Shown: positions 33,679 through 46,941 of the stretch, piece after piece
Layout: the number at the start of each line of letters is the position of its first letter
How positions within the stretch are numbered: position 1 is the first letter of the stretch
Assembly (NCBI GenBank): GCA_003168375.1
Contig: PMSI01000001.1
Coordinates: 496,001-560,000, forward strand
Direction of reading: 5' to 3'
Length of the DNA: 64,000 nucleotides
Origin: Vulcanimicrobiota bacterium
Lineage (GTDB): Bacteria; Vulcanimicrobiota; Vulcanimicrobiia; Vulcanimicrobiales; Vulcanimicrobiaceae
Translations under genes and position numbers: made by a program
Notes under the pieces: model-generated
Databases searched by the model: none
What the model was told of the DNA's origin: nothing
The model's input: only the letters and a program-made list of their open reading frames with translations

Positions 33679-35673
33679 TCAGCCCGCGAAAGGCGACCCC
33701 AGCTGGATATGGCCCGGGGGGCCGCCGACTTTGCCGCGCTGGACGTCGAAATCGTGGGGTTTGCCGTCGTAGGCGCGCAGCTGGGTTTGGTAGGTGCCGT
33801 ACTCCCACCAGAAGCGGCCGTCGAGCTTGTCGATCACGTCGCCGGTGCGTAGTCCCGCCTCGTATGCCGGGCCGCCGGGGCGCACCAGCGCCCGCATGTA
33901 GCCGTCGGCCGGCTTGAAGAGCACGTAGAAGTAGGTCGGGCTCGGACTCGACGGATCGAAGGCGAGCCCGCGCTCGAACACCTCGGCGGCGAGGGCCGGA
34001 TGCTCGCGTGACCAGACGCGCACGCGGAACAGCGTGTCGAGCGCCGCGGCGCGCACGTCCTTTTGCGCGTGCCATTCGTCGACGCTCCAGCCGGCGCAGT
34101 CGAGTAGCTCGAGGCCGACGTCGCGGCCGTCGCGCCCGAGCGGTGTCACGCTCAGTTTCATCACCGCAGCGTAGGGTTTCGCGCGACAATCGCTCGCCGC
34201 CGGATCGTTCGGCGCCGCAACGACGCGATAGCCCTGCCAGCCGCGCGCGACCGCTTCGGCGACTTCGTGCGCGGCGCGCGCACCGTCCGGCGTGCCGTCG
34301 TCGATCACCGCGATCGTGCGGGCCGACGAGGCGGGCGCGTACAGGCCGCCCGCGTCGAGCGTCGCGGCGGCGGCGGCGCGCGGCGGGAACGGCGGCGTAC
34401 CGAACAGCGCGCTGCCGAAGACGACGACCGCGAGCGCGGCGAGCGTCGCGACGCCGACCTGCCACGGCAGCAGCAGGCGCGTGATGCGCTCGACGCCGGT
34501 CCCGGTAAAGTTCGCGACCCACACGTTTTGCGTGTTCGTCGGATCGCAGACGTTCTGCACCTGCACCACCGCCATCACCGCGCCGACCAGCGCGACCGCC
34601 GGCAGCACGTGCAGCGTCAACAGCACGGTGTAGACGCCGATCCCGACGCCGTAGGGGTTCAGCGGGCCGCGGTAGAGCGCGAGCGGTGAGAGCAGCCCGA
34701 ACAGCACGACGTAGGCGACCGGCGAACGCGGCGCGACCGCCGCGACCAGCGGCGTCACCGCGGCCTGCACCTGCGGCGTGTTCGCCGCGACGAGCAGCAT
34801 CCCGATCCCGATCATCAGAATCGTCGCCGGCGCGACGTCCTCGATCCCGCGGATCCACGCGGCCATCAGCGTCTTCACGGCGGCGCGCGGGCGCGTCACG
34901 AGCACGGCATAGACCGCGGCGAGCGCAAAACCTACGATCGCGTCGACACCGAACCCGCGCAGCAGCACGAGCGGCAGGATCGGTGCGATCAGCGCCAGCG
35001 GGCCGACGCGCTTGCGCGGCTGCTCGCCGGGTTCCACCTTCGTCGCGTAACCGCGCGCCGCGCGCGCGCGGACCAGCGCGTACACGACGAGCACCGCGGC
35101 CTGGATCCCGAAGATCACGAAGGCGTAGCTCTGGAACGCGGTGCGGTCGACGCCGAAGATCGTGCCGTAGAACTTCCACTGCGCGATGTTGAGGATGTAC
35201 CCGAGCCCGAATGCGAGCAGGAAGAGCGTCGCCGAGGTCGCGCGCGGGACACCGACCGTCATCAGCACCGGCAGCACGATCGTGCCGATCATGATGATCG
35301 CGCCGAGCCCGGTGACCGTCGTGAACAGCACCGCGACGACGGCGCACATCAGCAGCGAGAGCACCAGCGGGCGATCGCCGCCGAACTCCGCCGCATAGGT
35401 CACGAGCGTCTCGGCGATCCCGGTCGAGAGCACGACGCGGCTGAGCAGCGCGCCGAAGAACAGCGTCGCGTAAACCGGCGCCAGCTTCACCGCACCGAGC
35501 GTGACGATCGAGGCGAGATCGGGAACGCCGGCGAGCGCCGCGGTCGCCAGCGCCATCAGCGGGACTGCGAGCAGCGCCGGCAGCTTGCGCGCGATCATAA
35601 GCGCCGCGAGCGCGAGGAAGACGAGGACGATCGCGATTCCGCTCAGCGGGCCGATGACATCACCTCGTCCCAC
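33679..35673 (-). CDS. Multi-helix ion transporter fused to C-terminal PDZ-like domain
   Basis: Large protein of about 660 residues. The first ~440 form a 10-12-helix permease of the ion-transporter/GntP-CitMHS kind (VTGLGAIIMIGTIVLPVLMTVG, FGLGYILNIAQWKFYG, QVQNVCDPTNTQNVWVANF). A linker with one further helix leads to an extracytoplasmic region of about 200 residues ending in a PDZ-like domain (LVRPGGPAYEAGLRTGDVIDKLDGR). The GTG at 35673 is the nearest canonical start; a CTG at 35646 overlapping the upstream stop as CTGA fits the first helix equally well. It follows a GH20 gene in the same operon, so it may import organic acids or sugar-derived compounds. The PDZ fusion is unusual. Confidence 0.75.
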   Translation of the reverse strand: MGRGDVIGPLSGIAIVLVFLALAALMIARKLPALLAVPLMALATAALAGVPDLASIVTLGAVKLAPVYATLFFGALLSRVVLSTGIAETLVTYAAEFGGDRPLVLSLLMCAVVAVLFTTVTGLGAIIMIGTIVLPVLMTVGVPRATSATLFLLAFGLGYILNIAQWKFYGTIFGVDRTAFQSYAFVIFGIQAAVLVVYALVRARAARGYATKVEPGEQPRKRVGPLALIAPILPLVLLRGFGVDAIVGFALAAVYAVLVTRPRAAVKTLMAAWIRGIEDVAPATILMIGIGMLLVAANTPQVQAAVTPLVAAVAPRSPVAYVVLFGLLSPLALYRGPLNPYGVGIGVYTVLLTLHVLPAVALVGAVMAVVQVQNVCDPTNTQNVWVANFTGTGVERITRLLLPWQVGVATLAALAVVVFGSALFGTPPFPPRAAAAATLDAGGLYAPASSARTIAVIDDGTPDGARAAHEVAEAVARGWQGYRVVAAPNDPAASDCRAKPYAAVMKLSVTPLGRDGRDVGLELLDCAGWSVDEWHAQKDVRAAALDTLFRVRVWSREHPALAAEVFERGLAFDPSSPSPTYFYVLFKPADGYMRALVRPGGPAYEAGLRTGDVIDKLDGRFWWEYGTYQTQLRAYDGKPHDFDVQRGKVGGPPGHIQLGSPFAG

Positions 35674-37664
35674 GGCGGGACGGTGCCTTTGCGCAGGTAG
35701 TCCTCGCGCATCACGCCGTCGATCCGGTCGGCGCAGCGCTGGGCGTCGTTCTCGCCGATGCGGTAGTGCGCGAGCATGTGGTCGAGCCCGGGCTGCGTGC
35801 TCTCGTGCCGCCAAGCGGCCGCGTACAGCGGCTCGATGTTGGCGAGCCCGTCGCGCAGCTCCCAGCATAGGTACTTCGCGACGGCGAGACTGCGGTAGGC
35901 CTGCGACGTGCCGAGCACCGTCGCGTGCGAGCGCGCATCGTCGTAATAATCGCGCGCCTCTTTCCCGATCTGCAGGCGGCGCGCAAGCTGATCGTAGCGC
36001 AGCGCGCCGAGCTTCATCACCGCGGCAGCCTCGGGATGCAGCGGCGGGCTCGCGTTCCACAAGTGAGCGAGGACTGCTTCCGCCCGCGTGCGTACACCGG
36101 CGAGATCGAGCGGACGCGCGCGGGACTGCACGCGCGGATCGAAGGGATCGCGCCAGAAGAGGTAGTCGGGCGGATCGGACGGCGTCGTGCGGAGCATCGG
36201 GCGGATCGCCTGCAGCGCATCGAGATCGCTCGCGTACCGAGCGTCGCCGGTGCCGAAGAACGCGCGCGCGAAGGTGCGATGCCAAGTCGCATCATCCACC
36301 GGTCCCTGTTGCCAGGCAGTCGCGGCCGCGTAGGCGACGGACGGCCAAGTGGCCTCGAAAAGCGTCTCGCCGTCGTCGTGCCACACGGTCATGAACATGC
36401 CGAGCATCCCGCGCACACCCTTCGCTTCGCCGACGAACCCGCCGACGTTCGCATATGCGGTACCCAGATCGGGATAGATCTCGTTCCAGTTCGCGGCGCC
36501 CGGCGAGACCATCTGAGCGAAGCCCGCGCTCGCGATCGTGTCGATGTACGGCTTGTACGTCTTCTCGGCACCATAGTGGAACGTGACGACGACGGTATTC
36601 TTCGGGATGAGCTCGAGTATCGAGCGGTCTTGCTGGATCGCGTCGTCCCAGATCATCGGCCGCGTCCGTCCGGGCGGCAAGAAGGACGCGACCCGCTTGA
36701 CGTGGTCGGCGAACACCTGCGCGGTCCGCGGCGTGCGTCCGCGGCCCAAATCGATCGGTTCGTCCGAACCGAGGTGGACGAACGGCACCGGCTGCGTCGC
36801 AGCGACGACGCTCTTCACCAGGGGCTCGAGATACTGGTAGGTCGCCGGATCACTCTCCGCGAGGAGATAGCCGTGCGGCAACTCCGCCTGCGGGGCGAGC
36901 TGCTCCCACTTGAGCGTCTCGTGCATGTGCGCGAACGTCTGCTGCTCCGGTATCAGCGTGACGTGGAACCGCCGAGCGTAGACAGCCAGCTCGTGCAATT
37001 GCGCCGGCGTCCAGCCGTTGGGCCACGCGACGAACGGGTACCGCGGATCGACGACCACCTGCTCCATGTACGGCGACCAGCCGTTGATCTTCAGCGTCGC
37101 GAGCGTGCGGATGCGCTCCTTCGCGTACCGCATCGTCGGGAACGGGCCGCGCGAGACGTCGTCGGAGACGATCCGCCACCGAAGCTTCGGCGTGTCGACG
37201 ATCTCGACGCACGGCAGCACCCAGTGCCCGCCGCGGCGCTCGGGGAGCTGCGCGAGCGTCATCATCGCATCGAAGCTCGCTTCGGCGTCGCCGGGGAAGA
37301 TGCTGATCAGATTGCTGCGGACGCTGAGCCGATAACCGTGCGGATCAGGAAACGAGAGTTTCCCTGGATTCGTGTACACGAAGACGTCGAGCGCGCTTGC
37401 GACCGGCGACGCGTACGCCGGCGCGGGGATGCCGAGCGCGACCCAGCGTTCGCGCAGCAGTTCGAACCCGGCATGGTCGGCGCTCCCGTGGAAGCGCAGC
37501 GGCCGGTCGAGCGATCGCGGCGCTTCGCAGGCCGCCGGCTCGACGCTGGCCGGCCGCGGAACGAGCGCCGGTGGCTGCGGGTCGGCCGTAGCCGCGGCGA
37601 CCGGGATCGCACCGGCGGCGACTCCGGCGAGCAGGACGAAGACCGCGACGAGGAACGATCGCAC
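35643..37664 (-). CDS. Secreted GH20 beta-N-acetylhexosaminidase
   Basis: Family 20 glycosidase of 673 residues with an N-terminal signal peptide (about 1-25). A GH20b-like domain (about 35-150) precedes the TIM barrel. The catalytic Asp-Glu pair of GH20 is in PFVHLGSDEPIDLGRG; active-site neighbours include MIWDDAIQQD and FMTVWHDDGETLFEATWP. The reaction is release of terminal GlcNAc or GalNAc through substrate-assisted catalysis. A C-terminal helical region of about 200 residues follows the barrel. The gene probably feeds the NanE/kinase pathway encoded elsewhere in the window. Its stop overlaps the transporter gene downstream. Confidence 0.9.
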   Translation of the reverse strand: MRSFLVAVFVLLAGVAAGAIPVAAATADPQPPALVPRPASVEPAACEAPRSLDRPLRFHGSADHAGFELLRERWVALGIPAPAYASPVASALDVFVYTNPGKLSFPDPHGYRLSVRSNLISIFPGDAEASFDAMMTLAQLPERRGGHWVLPCVEIVDTPKLRWRIVSDDVSRGPFPTMRYAKERIRTLATLKINGWSPYMEQVVVDPRYPFVAWPNGWTPAQLHELAVYARRFHVTLIPEQQTFAHMHETLKWEQLAPQAELPHGYLLAESDPATYQYLEPLVKSVVAATQPVPFVHLGSDEPIDLGRGRTPRTAQVFADHVKRVASFLPPGRTRPMIWDDAIQQDRSILELIPKNTVVVTFHYGAEKTYKPYIDTIASAGFAQMVSPGAANWNEIYPDLGTAYANVGGFVGEAKGVRGMLGMFMTVWHDDGETLFEATWPSVAYAAATAWQQGPVDDATWHRTFARAFFGTGDARYASDLDALQAIRPMLRTTPSDPPDYLFWRDPFDPRVQSRARPLDLAGVRTRAEAVLAHLWNASPPLHPEAAAVMKLGALRYDQLARRLQIGKEARDYYDDARSHATVLGTSQAYRSLAVAKYLCWELRDGLANIEPLYAAAWRHESTQPGLDHMLAHYRIGENDAQRCADRIDGVMREDYLRKGTVPPWDEVMSSAR

Positions 37665-39237: not shown

Positions 39238-41730
39238 ATGGCGCTCAGCCCTCTGGACATCGCGGTCATCGTCGCGTTCTTCGCGATCAACCTCGGGATC
39301 GGGCTGTGGTTCGCGCGCGGCAGCGGCAAGAATATCGGCGAGTACTTTCTGTCGGGCCGCAGCGCGCCGTGGTGGCTCACCGGGACGTCGATGGTCGCGA
39401 CGACGTTCGCCGTCGACACGCCGCTCGCGGTGACCGGGTTCGTCGCGCAGAACGGGATCGCCGGCAACTGGCTGTGGTGGAACATGGCGGCGAGCGGGAT
39501 GCTGACGGTGTTCTTCTTCGCGGCGCTGTGGCGGCGGTCGGGGGTGCTGACCGACGTCGAGTTCATCGAGCTGCGCTACGGCGGGAAGCCCGCATCGTGG
39601 CTGCGCGGCGTGCGCGCCGTGTACCAGGGCGTGATCGTCAACACGATCATCATGGGCTGGGTCAACCTGGCGATGGTGAAGATCCTCACGCTGACGCTCC
39701 ACGTGCCGACGCTCCCCGCGCTCTACGTCTGCCTGGCGCTGACCGCGCTCTACGTCACGATCGGCGGTTTCTGGTCGGTGCTGGTCACCGACTTTCTGCA
39801 GTTCATCGTCAAGATGACGATGGCGGTCGTGCTCGCCGTCGCGGCCGTCGCCGCAGTCGGAGGGATCGCGGCGCTCAAAGCGGGCCTCGCCACGGTCGAC
39901 GCGCAGCACCGCGCGAGCGGCGGCGGTTCGATCCTCGCCTTCGTGCCGTCCGGCGGCGATGCGAGTTGGATGCCGCTGACGACGTTCCTCGTCTTCATCG
40001 GCGTCGCGTGGTGGGCGTCGTCGTACCCCGGTGCGGAGCCGGGCGGGGGGTCGTACATCGCGCAGCGGATCTTCGCCTCGCGCAGTGAGAAGGACGCCGT
40101 CTTCGCCACGCTCTTCTTCAACGTCGCGCACTACGCGCTGCGGCCGTGGCCGTGGATCCTGGTCGCGCTCGCCGCGCTCGTGCTCTACCCGCACGGCGTG
40201 ATCGGTGCGAACGGACAGCCCGATCCCGAGCTCGGCTACGTGCAGACGCTGGTCGATCACCTTCCGGTCGCGCTTCGGGGCCTGATGATGGCCGGCTTCC
40301 TGGCGGCGTATATGTCGACGATCGGGACGCAGCTGAACCTCGGCGCGTCGTACCTCACCAACGACCTATACCGCCGGTTCGTGAAGCAAAACGCGAGCGA
40401 CGCGCACTACGTCGTGATCTCGCGCTGGATGACGGTCGTCGCGATGGTGCTCGCAGCGGTCGTCACCCTCTTCATGACCTCGGTCGGCGATGCGTGGAAG
40501 TACATGCTCACGCTGACCGCCGGCGTCGGCCTGGTGATGATCCTGCGCTGGTACTGGTGGCGGATCAGCGCGTGGAGCGAGATCTCCGCGCTTGCCGCGT
40601 CGGCGATCGTCGGCAGCTTGTGCTACATGCCGTGGACGGGAATCGCTGGCGGCGACCCGAACGCGACCGGAAAACGCCTGCTGGTGACCGTCGTGGCGAC
40701 GACGGTCGTGTGGCTCGTCGTCACGTTTGTGACGAAACCCGAGAGTGAGGCTACCTTGAAGCGATTCTACGAACGCGTGCGGCCGGCCGGGAGCGGCTGG
40801 GGTCCCATTGCGCGGCTCGTGCCGGGCGGCTCGGAAGACAAGCTCGGGATCGCGCTCGTCGACTGGGTTGCCGGGCTCGGCCTCGTCTACGGCGTGCTCT
40901 TCGGGATCGGGCGGATCGTGCTGGGCGAGCTCGGCCAGGGCCTCGCGTGGCTGGCGCTCGCGGCGGTGTGCGGCGCGGTGATCGCGCGCTCGCTGAGCCG
41001 GCCCACGACCAAGGTCGCGGTCACGGCGATGCTCGTGTTGGTTGCGGTGCTGCTACCGCAGCACGGCTTTGCCGCCGACACCGACAAGACGCTGACCAAC
41101 GTGAAAGGGAACGTCACGTACGAACGCAGCGGCAAGCAGAAGCCGCTGGTCTCCGCCGCCTCGATCGCGTTGGCGAGTCAAGACTGGGCGACGACCGGCG
41201 ACGCCTCGCAGGCCCGCGTGCTGCTCCCCGACTCCTCGCGCGTGCTGATCGCCAGCGCGACGCGCGTCCAGATGACCCGCTTCGACCAGTCCGACGTCGC
41301 GCACGCGCAGTTCATCGTCGATCACGGACGCGTTCGCTTCCAAGTCGAGCATCCGCAAGGCGCGAAGGCCGATTACACGTTCAAGACGACGACCGCGAAC
41401 ATCGCCGTACGCGGCACCGAAGGCGACATCGGCGTCGACGGCGATCAGTTGACCGTGAACGTCTACAACACGCTGTCGCCGGACGCGCCGGTCGAGGTGA
41501 CGTTCACCGCCGGTGACCACCCCGGCACGGTGCTCAAGCTGTACGCCGGCCAGTCACTGGTCGCGCGGCTGGTGAACGGGATCATTCAGACGCAGGTCGA
41601 CAAAGTCACCCAAGCCGCGCTGGCACAGTTCTCGGAGCTCGGCGTGCCGACCAGCATCGCCGACTTCAAAGGCCGCGCCATCGACGAGGTCAAGAAGCGG
41701 CTACCGGGGATCCCCGGCTTCCCGCACTAG
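39238..41730 (+). CDS. Sodium:solute symporter fused to FecR-like domain
   Basis: One continuous 830-codon frame. Residues about 1-590 form a 13-14-helix SSS-family symporter (start LDIAVIVAFFAINLGIGLWFARG; RSAPWWLTGTSMVATTFAVDTPLAV; MMAGFLAAYMSTIGTQLNLGASYLTNDLY). A hydrophobic stretch that looks like a signal peptide (AVTAMLVLVAVLLPQHGFA, about 595-613) then leads to a FecR-like domain (TLTNVKGNVTYERSG, then TANIAVRGTEGDIGVDG) and a helical tail. FecR domains usually sit outside the cytoplasm and bind or sense. Fusion to a symporter is unusual and may have arisen by joining a secreted-protein gene in frame. The ATG at 39238 is clear. The transported solute is unknown. Confidence 0.85.
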   Translation: MALSPLDIAVIVAFFAINLGIGLWFARGSGKNIGEYFLSGRSAPWWLTGTSMVATTFAVDTPLAVTGFVAQNGIAGNWLWWNMAASGMLTVFFFAALWRRSGVLTDVEFIELRYGGKPASWLRGVRAVYQGVIVNTIIMGWVNLAMVKILTLTLHVPTLPALYVCLALTALYVTIGGFWSVLVTDFLQFIVKMTMAVVLAVAAVAAVGGIAALKAGLATVDAQHRASGGGSILAFVPSGGDASWMPLTTFLVFIGVAWWASSYPGAEPGGGSYIAQRIFASRSEKDAVFATLFFNVAHYALRPWPWILVALAALVLYPHGVIGANGQPDPELGYVQTLVDHLPVALRGLMMAGFLAAYMSTIGTQLNLGASYLTNDLYRRFVKQNASDAHYVVISRWMTVVAMVLAAVVTLFMTSVGDAWKYMLTLTAGVGLVMILRWYWWRISAWSEISALAASAIVGSLCYMPWTGIAGGDPNATGKRLLVTVVATTVVWLVVTFVTKPESEATLKRFYERVRPAGSGWGPIARLVPGGSEDKLGIALVDWVAGLGLVYGVLFGIGRIVLGELGQGLAWLALAAVCGAVIARSLSRPTTKVAVTAMLVLVAVLLPQHGFAADTDKTLTNVKGNVTYERSGKQKPLVSAASIALASQDWATTGDASQARVLLPDSSRVLIASATRVQMTRFDQSDVAHAQFIVDHGRVRFQVEHPQGAKADYTFKTTTANIAVRGTEGDIGVDGDQLTVNVYNTLSPDAPVEVTFTAGDHPGTVLKLYAGQSLVARLVNGIIQTQVDKVTQAALAQFSELGVPTSIADFKGRAIDEVKKRLPGIPGFPH

Positions 41731-41736
41731 CGTCGC

Positions 41737-42138
41737 CTACTCCGACGGCGCCTCGATGATCGCCCCGAACCGTTCGTCCAGGTAGCGCGCCGCGTCGTCG
41801 AGCTGCGCGGCGAGCTCGTCCAGCGTGGTTGCCGCGCGGATGCCGTCCGCGCACTCGACGATCTCGCGGTCGAGCTGGTGGACCCGGTCGACCAGCGTCG
41901 CGTCGAAGCGCGCGTGATCGGCGGCCTTGATCACGCGCTGGTCGGAGAACTCGCAGCGCGTCATCAGCCCGTCGAGCCGCTCGACCAACGCCTCGGTCGG
42001 CTTCAGCCGCTCGCGCGCCTCGGAGAGCGCCTCCCCGAGGATGGCCCGGATCTGCTTGTCGACTTGGTGGCGGGCGTCCATGTTGGCGTAATCGGCGTAG
42101 CCCGCGATTCGCTGCTGGAGGTACTCGAGGTCGGTCAT
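41737..42138 (-). CDS. Hypothetical helical protein
   Basis: Unrecognised protein of 133 residues. It is acidic, lacks signal peptide or membrane segment, and consists mostly of predicted helices with heptad-like spacing (for example EYLQQRIAGYADY, EARERLKPTEALVERLDGLM, LAAQLDDAARYLDERFG), so a helical bundle or coiled coil is likely. The ATG start is unambiguous. It converges with the symporter-FecR gene and diverges from the cyclase-like gene 38 bases away, but no functional link is evident. Confidence 0.6.
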   Translation of the reverse strand: MTDLEYLQQRIAGYADYANMDARHQVDKQIRAILGEALSEARERLKPTEALVERLDGLMTRCEFSDQRVIKAADHARFDATLVDRVHQLDREIVECADGIRAATTLDELAAQLDDAARYLDERFGAIIEAPSE

Positions 42139-43643: not shown

Positions 43644-44813
43644 CTAAGACGTGCGAGCTCCATCTCCCCGCCCGCCGTACATCCGCTTGAGCAACACCTC
43701 CAGGGGCGCCCCCTGCACCACGATCGTCACCAGCACGACGGCGAAGGTCGCGTCGATGATCTGCGGGCGGAACGGTACCGTGTCGGGGAGCGAGAGCGCC
43801 AGGGCGAGCGGCAGCGCCCCGCGCATCCCGGCAAGAAAGACCGTGATCCGTCCCGCGCGATCGCGCGTCGCGACGAGCGCGAGCAGAACGCGAGCCAGCC
43901 ACACCACCGCGATCGCGGCGAGGACGAGCAACGGCTCGTGAACGATGCGATCGGGCTGGATCAGCAGCCCCGTCGCGATGAAGACGACGGCGTTCGCAAC
44001 GAACGCCAGGGAGCTCCACACGCGATCGACCTCCTCGGTGTTGCTGATCGCCTCGGGGTTGTGCGCGATCGTGGCCCGCAGCGCGATCGCGCCGGCGGCG
44101 GTTGCGAAGATCCCGGAACAATGGATCCCGGTCGCGGCGAGATAGGCGACGTACGCGAGGACGATCGTCACCGTCACCTCGTATTCGGCGGCGCTCGTCG
44201 CGCGCAGCACCGCGGCGCACAGCACGCCCGCCAGCGCTCCGATCAGCACGCCGCCGCCGATCTGGATCACCGCGGCGAGCACCTCGGCAGCGGGCGAGAC
44301 CGGCTGACCGGCGGCGAGCGCGAGCGCGAATCCGAACAAGACGAGGGCGACGCCGTCGTTGCTGAGCGACTCGCCCTCGATCAGCGTGCGCAGATCCACC
44401 GGCACGGGGACGCGCCGAAACGCTGCAACGACGGCGACCGGATCGGTCGCCGCCACGATCGCGCCGAAGAGCAGCGCCGCGCCGAACGGCAGCACACCGA
44501 GCAGCGCGAGGCCGCCGGCGACGATCCCCGCGGTGACGAGCGTGCCCGGCACCGCGAGGACGGCGATCCGCCAGCCGAGACGCCGCAGCGCCTCGAGATC
44601 GAGGTTCCACGCCGCTTCAAAGATCAGCGGCGGCAGGAACACGAACAGCACGGTGTCGCCGAACGCGAACGGCAGCGCGATCGGGAACAGCGTTCCGACG
44701 CCGACCATCGCGACGGCGGCGGGTACCCGAACGCGCTCGGCGAGAATCGCGACCAGCACCCCGGCGCCGAGCAGCGCGGTGAACGCGCCGACGCTGTGCG
44801 CGACCTCGTTCAT
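43644..44813 (-). CDS. Na+/H+ antiporter, CPA1 family
   Basis: Cation/proton antiporter of 389 residues with about 12 helices. Diagnostic motifs are FLPPLIFEAAWNLDL, FGAIVAATDPVAVVAAF (the Asp of the transport site), LIEGESLSNDGVALVLFGFAL and GMRGALPLALALSLP, all features of NhaP/NHE-type CPA1 carriers. There is no large cytoplasmic tail. The ATG at 44813 overlaps the sir2 stop (ATGA). It likely extrudes Na+ (or K+) in exchange for protons. It sits in an operon order sir2, antiporter, ridA. Confidence 0.92.
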   Translation of the reverse strand: MNEVAHSVGAFTALLGAGVLVAILAERVRVPAAVAMVGVGTLFPIALPFAFGDTVLFVFLPPLIFEAAWNLDLEALRRLGWRIAVLAVPGTLVTAGIVAGGLALLGVLPFGAALLFGAIVAATDPVAVVAAFRRVPVPVDLRTLIEGESLSNDGVALVLFGFALALAAGQPVSPAAEVLAAVIQIGGGVLIGALAGVLCAAVLRATSAAEYEVTVTIVLAYVAYLAATGIHCSGIFATAAGAIALRATIAHNPEAISNTEEVDRVWSSLAFVANAVVFIATGLLIQPDRIVHEPLLVLAAIAVVWLARVLLALVATRDRAGRITVFLAGMRGALPLALALSLPDTVPFRPQIIDATFAVVLVTIVVQGAPLEVLLKRMYGGRGDGARTS

Positions 44814-45532
44814 GCGAGCCCCGGAAGGACGTCGGAGGCGCGCGCGCGGATCGACTGGTCGACCTGCGCCGTCAGCGCCGTCTCCTCGGGATTGATTTCG
44901 ACGACGTAGGCGCGCGTCACGCGCTTGGTCGCGAGCGACGCCGCCGGGTGAACGATCCCCGAGGTGCCGACCACCAGCATCAGCTCGGCGCGGCGCGCGG
45001 CGTCGAATGCCGCGGCGAGCACCTCGGCGGGCAGTGATTCGCCGAACCACACAATGTCGGGCCGCCACATCCCGCCGCACTCGTGCTCGAGCGCCTCGAT
45101 GTCGAAAGCGTCGTCGAACGGCCGCCGCGCGTCGCAGCGCGTGCACTTCGCCTCGCGCAGGTTGCCGTGGAGTTCCAGCACGTTCCGCGAGCCGGCGCGC
45201 AGGTGGAGCGAGTCGACGTTCTGCGTCGCGAGCGTGAAGTCGGGGACGCGCTTCTCGATCGCTGCCAGCGCGACGTGCGCCGGCGACGGCTCGACCGACT
45301 TGTGGGCGTTGCGGCGTTCGTTGTACCACGTCCACACCAGGCGAGGATCGCGCGCGAAACCTTGCGGCGAGGCAAGCTCTTCGACCCGATGCGTGCGCCA
45401 CAGACCGCCGACGCCGCGAAAGGTCGGGAGCCCGCTCTCGGCCGAGATGCCGGAGCCGGTGAGGACGGTGACGGAGCGCGCGGCATCGAGCCGCTCGCGC
45501 AGGTCGCCGAGCTCGGGAACCGTGTCTCGCAT
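44810..45532 (-). CDS. Sir2-family NAD-dependent protein deacylase
   Basis: Sirtuin of about 240 residues. NAD-binding motifs: VTVLTGSGISAESGLPTFRG, LATQNVDSLH and ELHGNL (catalytic His), VVGTSGIVHPAA. The class III WYNERR segment (tyrosine and arginine three residues apart) suggests desuccinylase/demalonylase capability in addition to deacetylation. The zinc site is reduced: CTRC is intact, but the second pair has Glu-His-Glu before its single Cys (EHECGG), so one Cys is missing and a nearby His may replace it. I chose ATG 45532; a GTG seven codons upstream is possible. It is coupled to the antiporter by ATGA. Confidence 0.9.
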   Translation of the reverse strand: MRDTVPELGDLRERLDAARSVTVLTGSGISAESGLPTFRGVGGLWRTHRVEELASPQGFARDPRLVWTWYNERRNAHKSVEPSPAHVALAAIEKRVPDFTLATQNVDSLHLRAGSRNVLELHGNLREAKCTRCDARRPFDDAFDIEALEHECGGMWRPDIVWFGESLPAEVLAAAFDAARRAELMLVVGTSGIVHPAASLATKRVTRAYVVEINPEETALTAQVDQSIRARASDVLPGLA

Positions 45533-45625
45533 CGCCAGTCGGTTCGACCGCACGGCCCATCCGTCCGTCGTGCGGCGGCGTTACCCCGGCGAGGTGACCG
45601 CCACAGCGACGCGAAGGCCCGCCCA

Positions 45626-46159
45626 ATGGATCCCGGGGTCCGCCTGATGGAGCGGGTTGCGGCGCGCGACGTCCGTGCATTCGAGGCGCTCTATGACGGC
45701 TACCACCGGCTGGTCTTCGGGATCGGGCTGCGTATGCTCGGCGATCCGGCCCTGGCCGAAGACCTCACCCAAACGGTGTTCATGAAGATTTGGACGGCGC
45801 CGGAGGCGTTCCGCGGCGGCTCGTTCGTCGCGTGGGTCTCGCGCGTCGCGCGCAACCGCGCGCTCGACGTGCTGCGCTCCAAGGCGGTCCACCCGGAGAG
45901 CGAGATCCCGGCCGACCTCCCGCTCGAGGGCGCGCTCGACGACGACGTGTTCAGCCGCTTGGACGCGCAGCGCGTGCGCGATGCGCTCTCGGCGCTGCCG
46001 CCCGAGCAGCGCGCGCTGATCGAGCTCGGGTTCTTCGGCGGCGTGACGCACCAAGAGCTCGCGCGCCGTACCGACACGCCGCTCGGCACGGTGAAGACGC
46101 GCATTCGCAGCGGACTGCGCCGGATGCGGGAAACGCTCGGGGAGCGGGTGTCGCGATGA
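45626..46159 (+). CDS. ECF RNA polymerase sigma factor
   Basis: Extracytoplasmic-function sigma factor of 177 residues. Region 2 is recognisable (FEALYDGYHRLVFGIGLRMLGDPALAEDLTQTVFMKIW, then FVAWVSRVARNRALDVLRS), and region 4 covers LPPEQRALIELGFFGGVTHQELARRTDTPLGTVKTRIRSGLRRMR, its helix-turn-helix intact. Between them is an acidic linker. The ATG at 45626 starts region 2 at the expected distance; the upstream extension is a shadow of the divergent sir2 gene. Its stop overlaps the anti-sigma start (ATGA), the usual arrangement for ECF/RskA pairs in which the anti-sigma binds and silences the sigma factor at the membrane. Confidence 0.95.
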   Translation: MDPGVRLMERVAARDVRAFEALYDGYHRLVFGIGLRMLGDPALAEDLTQTVFMKIWTAPEAFRGGSFVAWVSRVARNRALDVLRSKAVHPESEIPADLPLEGALDDDVFSRLDAQRVRDALSALPPEQRALIELGFFGGVTHQELARRTDTPLGTVKTRIRSGLRRMRETLGERVSR

Positions 46160-46941
46160 ACGAGCCCGCGAACCGCGAGGAGATGATGGAGTCGGTCGCG
46201 CTCTACGCGCTCGGCGTGTTGCCGCGCGAGGAAGCCGCGCTGATCGCGGCGTTCATCGCGAACGACCTCGAAGCGCGCCGCGAGTACCTCGACCTGCGCG
46301 CGGCGGCGGACGCGATCGCCCACAGCGCGGACGAGCCGGTCGATTCGGCAACCTCGTCGCGGATGAAAGAGCGCCTGATGGCGCGCGTCCGCGCCGCGGC
46401 GTCCGGACAGACGGCGGCGCGGAGCCGCGTCCAGGCCGCCTACCCGGCGTGGATCTGGGGGACGGGGCTCGCCACGGCGGCGGCGGTCGTCTTCTCGGTG
46501 GTGACCGTCGCGCAGGACGTGAACCTGCGCGGGAATCTCGCCGCGGCGCAGCGCCGGATCCAGGTGCTGGCGGCGCAGAACAGCCAGATCGAACGGGTCG
46601 CGGCTCAGGACCGCCGCACCCTGACCGACCTGCTCGCCCCGGACGCCAAACGCTACGAGGTCGCCGCCGGCACCGTGGTGGTACGCCGCGACCGCATCTA
46701 CTTTGCGTTCTCGAAGCTGCCGCCGCCCCCGAAGGGGCACGTCTACCAGGCCTGGACGGCGCCCAAGGGCTCGACGACGGTCGCGCCCAGCGTCACCTTC
46801 TCGCCGAACGCCGACGGCGTCGCGGTCGTCGCCCTGCCGGTCGATGCGACGCGGGTCGGGGCCGTGGCGGTCAGCGTCGAACCGGAGGGCGGGAGCAAAG
46901 CTCCCACGACCACCCCCACGTTCGTCAAACCGCTGACCTAA
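46156..46941 (+). CDS. Anti-sigma factor, RskA-like
   Basis: Membrane anti-sigma factor of 261 residues. A cytoplasmic sigma-binding domain (about 1-85, MMESVALYALGVLPREEAALIAAFIANDLEARREYLDL) precedes a single membrane helix (about 98-116, PAWIWGTGLATAAAVVFSVVTV). A short coiled stretch (about 120-150) and an extracytoplasmic RskA domain (VVVRRDRIYFAFSKLPPPPKGHVYQAW...) follow. The zinc-binding HxxxCxxC of ZAS-type anti-sigma factors is absent, so control is probably by regulated proteolysis. It is coupled to the sigma gene. Confidence 0.92.
   Translation: MNEPANREEMMESVALYALGVLPREEAALIAAFIANDLEARREYLDLRAAADAIAHSADEPVDSATSSRMKERLMARVRAAASGQTAARSRVQAAYPAWIWGTGLATAAAVVFSVVTVAQDVNLRGNLAAAQRRIQVLAAQNSQIERVAAQDRRTLTDLLAPDAKRYEVAAGTVVVRRDRIYFAFSKLPPPPKGHVYQAWTAPKGSTTVAPSVTFSPNADGVAVVALPVDATRVGAVAVSVEPEGGSKAPTTTPTFVKPLT

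Follow-up and report, generated by a model that had tools for sequence, protein, structure and literature searches.

Polypeptides in which an SSS/SLC5 symporter is followed by additional C-terminal domains are known from the SLC5/STAC transporter-kinases CbrA, CrbS and RpuS, which carry STAC and histidine kinase domains there (PMC7918813, PMC7096432). FecR genes are found beside membrane CHASE2 cyclases or kinases in Campylobacterota (PMC9239204) and Burkholderia (PMC5192318), and FecR occurs near CyaD1 in Sinorhizobium (PMC5498481). Here we describe a gene in which a complete symporter and a FecR domain share one open frame, located in a window of 64,000 nucleotides (the whole stretch of DNA that was analyzed). 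The encoded protein resembles CbrA, CrbS and RpuS in joining extra C-terminal domains to an SSS/SLC5 symporter but differs in what is joined, namely a single, predicted periplasmic FecR domain behind a putative internal signal peptide; no STAC or kinase domain follows the symporter (no Pfam match at E up to 1). With the FecR/PupR anti-sigma regulators, it has in common the FecR domain and a fold match (6ovk, 4m0n) but not the cytoplasmic N-terminal anti-sigma domain, SSF and FecR being its only Pfam matches, and the nearest ECF sigma factor has an RskA-type partner of its own. As in the FecR-CHASE2 operons, FecR is encoded next to a membrane cyclase or kinase-type protein, and such pairs are also present at two other loci analyzed here (L050 and L145); the window FecR, however, is fused to a symporter, and its cyclase-like neighbor lacks a CHASE2 match and is missing catalytic residues. 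The LeuT-fold SSS core is common to the window protein and the sodium symporters vSGLT, SGLT and SiaT, with 17-21% identity in structure alignments, which is too low to read the substrate, whereas the added C-terminal helices and the FecR part set the window protein apart. A membrane protein and a periplasmic-domain protein are likewise combined in FbcH of Bradyrhizobium, a cytochrome b/c1 polyprotein whose single chain is split at an internal signal peptide; FbcH, however, gives rise to respiratory subunits and its cleavage has been shown experimentally, whereas that of the window protein is predicted from the junction. No description of a symporter-FecR fusion was found in the literature searched. 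The combination is real, conserved and unusual, and most likely represents a gene fusion from which two proteins are still produced.

Domains and folds of the fused protein

The fused gene (39238..41730, + strand) is open over 830 codons without a stop and encodes a product of 830 aa. Pfam identifies the SSF domain (PF00474) at residues 36-444 (profile positions 1-395 of 406, E value 1e-34, above the curated cut-off) and the FecR domain (PF04773) at residues 652-743 (1e-12, 48.8 bits against a cut-off of 24). The symporter superfamily is also indicated by NCBIfam, with a score under that model's own cut-off, and by matches to vSGLT and SGLT1/2 in a sequence search against the PDB; the FecR part had no match in this search but was matched by fold. 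In an AlphaFold2 model of the whole protein, built on a 52-row alignment, the two parts fold separately, into a helical transporter (residues 1-589) and a beta domain plus C-terminal helix (residues 615-821). Foldseek comparison of the whole model with the PDB retrieved SGLT1/2, vSGLT and SiaT (probability 1.00), and the FecR part alone, modeled with a pLDDT of 87, retrieved BDI_1681 (4m0n, E value 4.9e-8) and PupR (6ovk, 8.5e-6).

The symporter part (residues 1-590; 39238..41007, +) extends past the Pfam core by two modeled helices, at about 536-561 and 565-587, and homologues without FecR stop at about 583-632 aa. The FecR part, with predicted mature residues 613-830, occupies 41074..41727 (+) and includes the beta domain and the C-terminal helix. 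Profile and fold agree on membership of the PF00474 family, and the protein is a putative sodium-coupled transporter. In the genome from which the window derives, one SSF protein was found, the fused one, along with five FecR domains.

Distribution, precursor states and losses of the fusion

The full fusion is present in 11 of the 99 genomes of the family, which belong to four genera of Eremiobacterota: six genomes of the window genus (G000, G001, G003, G004, G007 and G009), G028 and G111, G015 and G107, and G035. A phylum-wide search (149 genomes, E values up to 1e-60) revealed no further fusion outside the family. In the top 80 symporter loci from an 84,980-species collection, FecR stands alongside the symporter only in Eremiobacterota, and the loci from outside this phylum contained no FecR match. 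The bearers of the fusion are a few related soil bacteria within Eremiobacterota. The other ten fused proteins, all from separately assembled genomes, share 62-96% identity with the window protein.

The preliminary description of this locus, made from the DNA letters, had proposed that a complete SSS symporter and FecR are encoded in one uninterrupted frame and that a secreted FecR gene had been joined in frame; the Pfam matches and the separately folding parts agree with the former, and the adjacent, overlapping and fused gene states detailed below bear out the latter. It had also named two findings that would speak against it. One of these, absence of the fusion from all close relatives, does not hold, given that 6 of the 11 members of the window genus have it (the other five are without FecR). 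The other, a frameshift or assembly join at the junction, is ruled out by the recurrence of the fusion, with diverged sequence, in 11 separately assembled genomes; we found nothing in favor of such an artefact and consider its probability negligible.

States that can be read as precursors of the fusion persist in other genomes. In many genera, the FecR gene is found alone at its syntenic place; in G043, a separate FecR gene starts 125 bp downstream of the symporter stop; in G041, the symporter stop and the FecR start overlap as ATGA; and in G014, a single stop parts two otherwise continuous frames. The symporter of G035 has one FecR fused to it and a second one behind, linked by an ATGA overlap, so that this locus (L044, 5518-8783, +) presents tandem FecR genes in mid-fusion. 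At loci without the symporter, the orthologous FecR gene is located between a divergent GH20-type gene with a membrane-protein neighbor, on one side, and the downstream genes of the window, on the other. Because FecR thus holds its place without the symporter, the symporter is apparently the newcomer, having arrived upstream of FecR. In the window, the divergent GH20-type glycosidase (35643..37664, -) has the counterpart that adjoins FecR in genomes lacking the symporter. Between it and the fusion are encoded a serine beta-lactamase-fold protein (PF00144; 37685..38629, +), which is also found near the symporter in L037, L039 and L046, and a DUF922 protein (PF06037; 38485..39201, +, start approximate) that ends 36 bp before the fusion. 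Another neighbor (33679-36285, -) encodes a membrane protein with a C-terminal PDZ-like domain and a hydrophobic part without a Pfam match, a further transporter-like protein whose tail is probably periplasmic.

In five congeners (G002, G005, G006, G008 and G010), the symporter, 84-90% identical, has no FecR behind it. The G006 symporter ends in ARTLRTPSVKVAVATMIAFAVCLSAAG*, a shortened version of the junction that is recognizable in the DNA as well, and G010 retains a shorter junction stump; these stumps indicate that FecR was fused and then lost in some lines. In the FecR tree, 10 of the 11 fused domains form one clade (support 95/95), with G035 apart, and in the symporter tree, G035 groups with the two adjacent-gene cases. 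This placement points to a possible second fusion event, although a single origin is not rejected (p-AU 0.27).

Anatomy of the junction

In the fused proteins, the FecR signal peptide sits after the last symporter helices. The window junction consists of the residues RSLSRPTTK, an uncharged hydrophobic core of 14 residues (593-606; 41014..41055, +) and a c-region that includes Pro607, PQHGFA|AD (41056..41079, +), with the predicted signal peptidase I site GFA612|A613 (41073/41074). The same anatomy recurs in all 11 fused proteins: K or R precedes a stretch of 14-15 uncharged residues, Pro comes next, and a -3/-1 site lies exactly six residues past the core, where -1 is small and -3 is either small or aliphatic (GFA, GFA, AFA, GFS, ALA, LNA, VRA, ARS, VRA, VRA and ARA). 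Position -2 may be F, L, N or R, a freedom that signal peptidase I would be expected to allow. Hence the features of a signal-peptidase-processed polyprotein, namely an internal signal peptide, a -3/-1 site and a short core, are found in 11 of 11 junctions, under a permissive cleavage-site rule and with 10 of the 11 junctions related to each other. In standalone FecR proteins, the corresponding place is occupied by an ordinary signal peptide.

Estimates of dN/dS are 0.24-1.6 in the junction compared to 0.07-0.16 in SSF and about 0.06-0.29 in FecR, that is, both domains are under purifying selection. The fast nonsynonymous change of the junction between two slowly changing domains suggests that its anatomy is maintained rather than its letters.

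We consider it moderately likely that this is a genuine gene fusion that acts as a two-protein polyprotein, with FecR serving in envelope signaling and not in the gating of transport. Under this scenario, an SSS symporter gene came to stand just upstream of a FecR gene, and the two would have passed through translational coupling to a single frame. The cytoplasmic tail of the symporter would now function as the n-region of the FecR signal peptide, and membrane insertion would place the FecR part on the periplasmic side. Cleavage by signal peptidase I, probably between residues 612 and 613, would separate the symporter (about 612 residues) from a FecR protein that is free in the periplasm (about 218 residues), the two being supplied 1:1; the latter most likely participates in envelope signaling with the cyclase-like membrane protein encoded downstream. 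Work on model proteins in yeast showed signal peptidase cleavage when VPSAQA|A came after a membrane segment of 14 Leu, and reduced or no cleavage with longer segments (PMC8277137). These observations, together with the 14-15-residue core, the proline and the -3/-1 site, make cleavage likely. Long N-terminal parts and high hydrophobicity reduce signal peptidase cleavage in yeast (PMC8277137), so the long part ahead of the junction and the strongly hydrophobic window core (mean KD 3.06) speak against the polyprotein, as do the permissive site rule, the relatedness of the junctions and the L151 junction, where the best site, ARS|D, is less typical.

The preliminary description had correctly pointed to a signal-peptide-like segment at about 595-613 but took it to have become the last membrane helix. 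An uncleaved protein of this kind, in which the attached periplasmic FecR senses solute or envelope state and gates transport or signaling in a transceptor-like manner, appears unlikely. The topology would permit it, with the positively charged residues 584-592 inside and FecR outside; SSS proteins fused to signaling domains exist (CbrA, CrbS); and purifying selection on FecR fits as well. However, a tether has no need of the signal-peptide features, the 14-15-residue core followed by Pro and the -3/-1 site at +6, that are found in 11 of 11 junctions, and AlphaFold2 predicts no confident helix at residues 590-614 (a single eight-residue helix, pLDDT below 50).

Somewhat less probable still is neutral loss of a stop codon, whereby the fusion would have no function of its own, both products would work as before, cut or uncut, and the state would come and go. 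The coexistence of adjacent, overlapping, fused and lost states is compatible with such a course, as is the absence of FecR from 5 of 11 congeners; against it are the occurrence of the fused state in four genera, purifying selection on both halves and the preserved spacing of the site. Given that conserved halves and spacing fit conserved products without necessarily implying a benefit of fusion, this explanation overlaps with the polyprotein. Very unlikely, finally, is an internal start codon as an additional or main source of FecR, which would render the fusion only apparent. G009 and G007 do have an internal ATG, from which the products would begin with MKTAVAAMLVIAALGAPSTLNA and MRRTPTAK..., respectively, but G003 has no ATG, GTG or TTG in the scanned stretch, and G015, G107 and G035 have only GTG or TTG, far upstream. 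We reject internal initiation as a general route to FecR because start codons are not conserved among the fused genes.

The cyclase-like neighbor and the role of FecR

Downstream of the fusion, the window encodes a cyclase-fold membrane protein (PF00211; 42177..43235, +). Inspection of 17 orthologues showed that the first metal-binding Asp is replaced by Arg in all of them and that other substrate and transition-state residues are missing in nearly all, suggestive of a conserved, FecR-syntenic family of apparent pseudo-cyclases. Of the 45 genomes with the cyclase-like orthologue, 28 by hand count carry a co-directional FecR gene upstream of it at a distance of up to about 3.3 kb, in some of them with a gap of 70-80 bp, and this synteny holds with or without the symporter. 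The cyclase-like gene persists after FecR loss in G002, G005, G008 and G010. A small coiled-coil-type gene on the opposite strand (41737..42138, -), whose place is conserved in tblastn synteny, separates the fused and cyclase-like genes, which are therefore probably not one transcript in the window. Both this intervening gene and the persistence of the cyclase-like gene after FecR loss speak against our preferred explanation.

Two other loci combine FecR with CHASE2 cyclases that, in contrast to the window neighbor, keep all catalytic residues or all but one. In L050 (G034:C1, 2119-6259, -), the genes for an MFS-like transporter, FecR and a CHASE2 cyclase follow one another at distances of 3 and 16 bp, a different transporter here being directly upstream of FecR. 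The other locus, L145 (5860-8486, -), belongs to the genome from which the window derives and couples a paralogue of FecR to a CHASE2 cyclase whose catalytic residues are mostly intact. Further downstream in the window are a sodium/proton antiporter (43644-45680, -) and a Sir2-family protein (44810-45553, -). We also considered FecR as the anti-sigma partner of the nearest ECF sigma factor (45653-46159) and rejected this assignment, the sigma gene being directly followed by that of its own RskA-type partner (46054-46941).

The synteny of FecR with a cyclase-like protein that is missing catalytic residues makes a role in signaling more probable than one in transport. The older tie of FecR appears to be with envelope signaling, the symporter being a later neighbor; this speaks against gating of transport, yet is compatible with a tethered sensor. 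The proposal in the preliminary description that FecR might gate transport is hard to reconcile with the independence of the FecR-cyclase-like synteny from the symporter and with the five congeners that have the symporter without FecR, which count against the tether, too. That the attached FecR constitutes a new type of transceptor, in which a periplasmic readout of transport state is passed to the apparently catalytically dead cyclase-like protein, seems quite improbable. The two-protein polyprotein remains our preferred explanation.

The symporter-FecR locus offers a worked example of how a gene for a membrane protein and a neighboring one for a secreted protein can merge while two products are probably kept, and sister genera still carry the intermediate states. 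From its domain architecture, the product would be annotated as a FecR-regulated transporter; if the predicted cleavage is true, the real product may be two proteins, and caution would be advisable before a functional link between domains is deduced from a fusion that contains an internal signal peptide.
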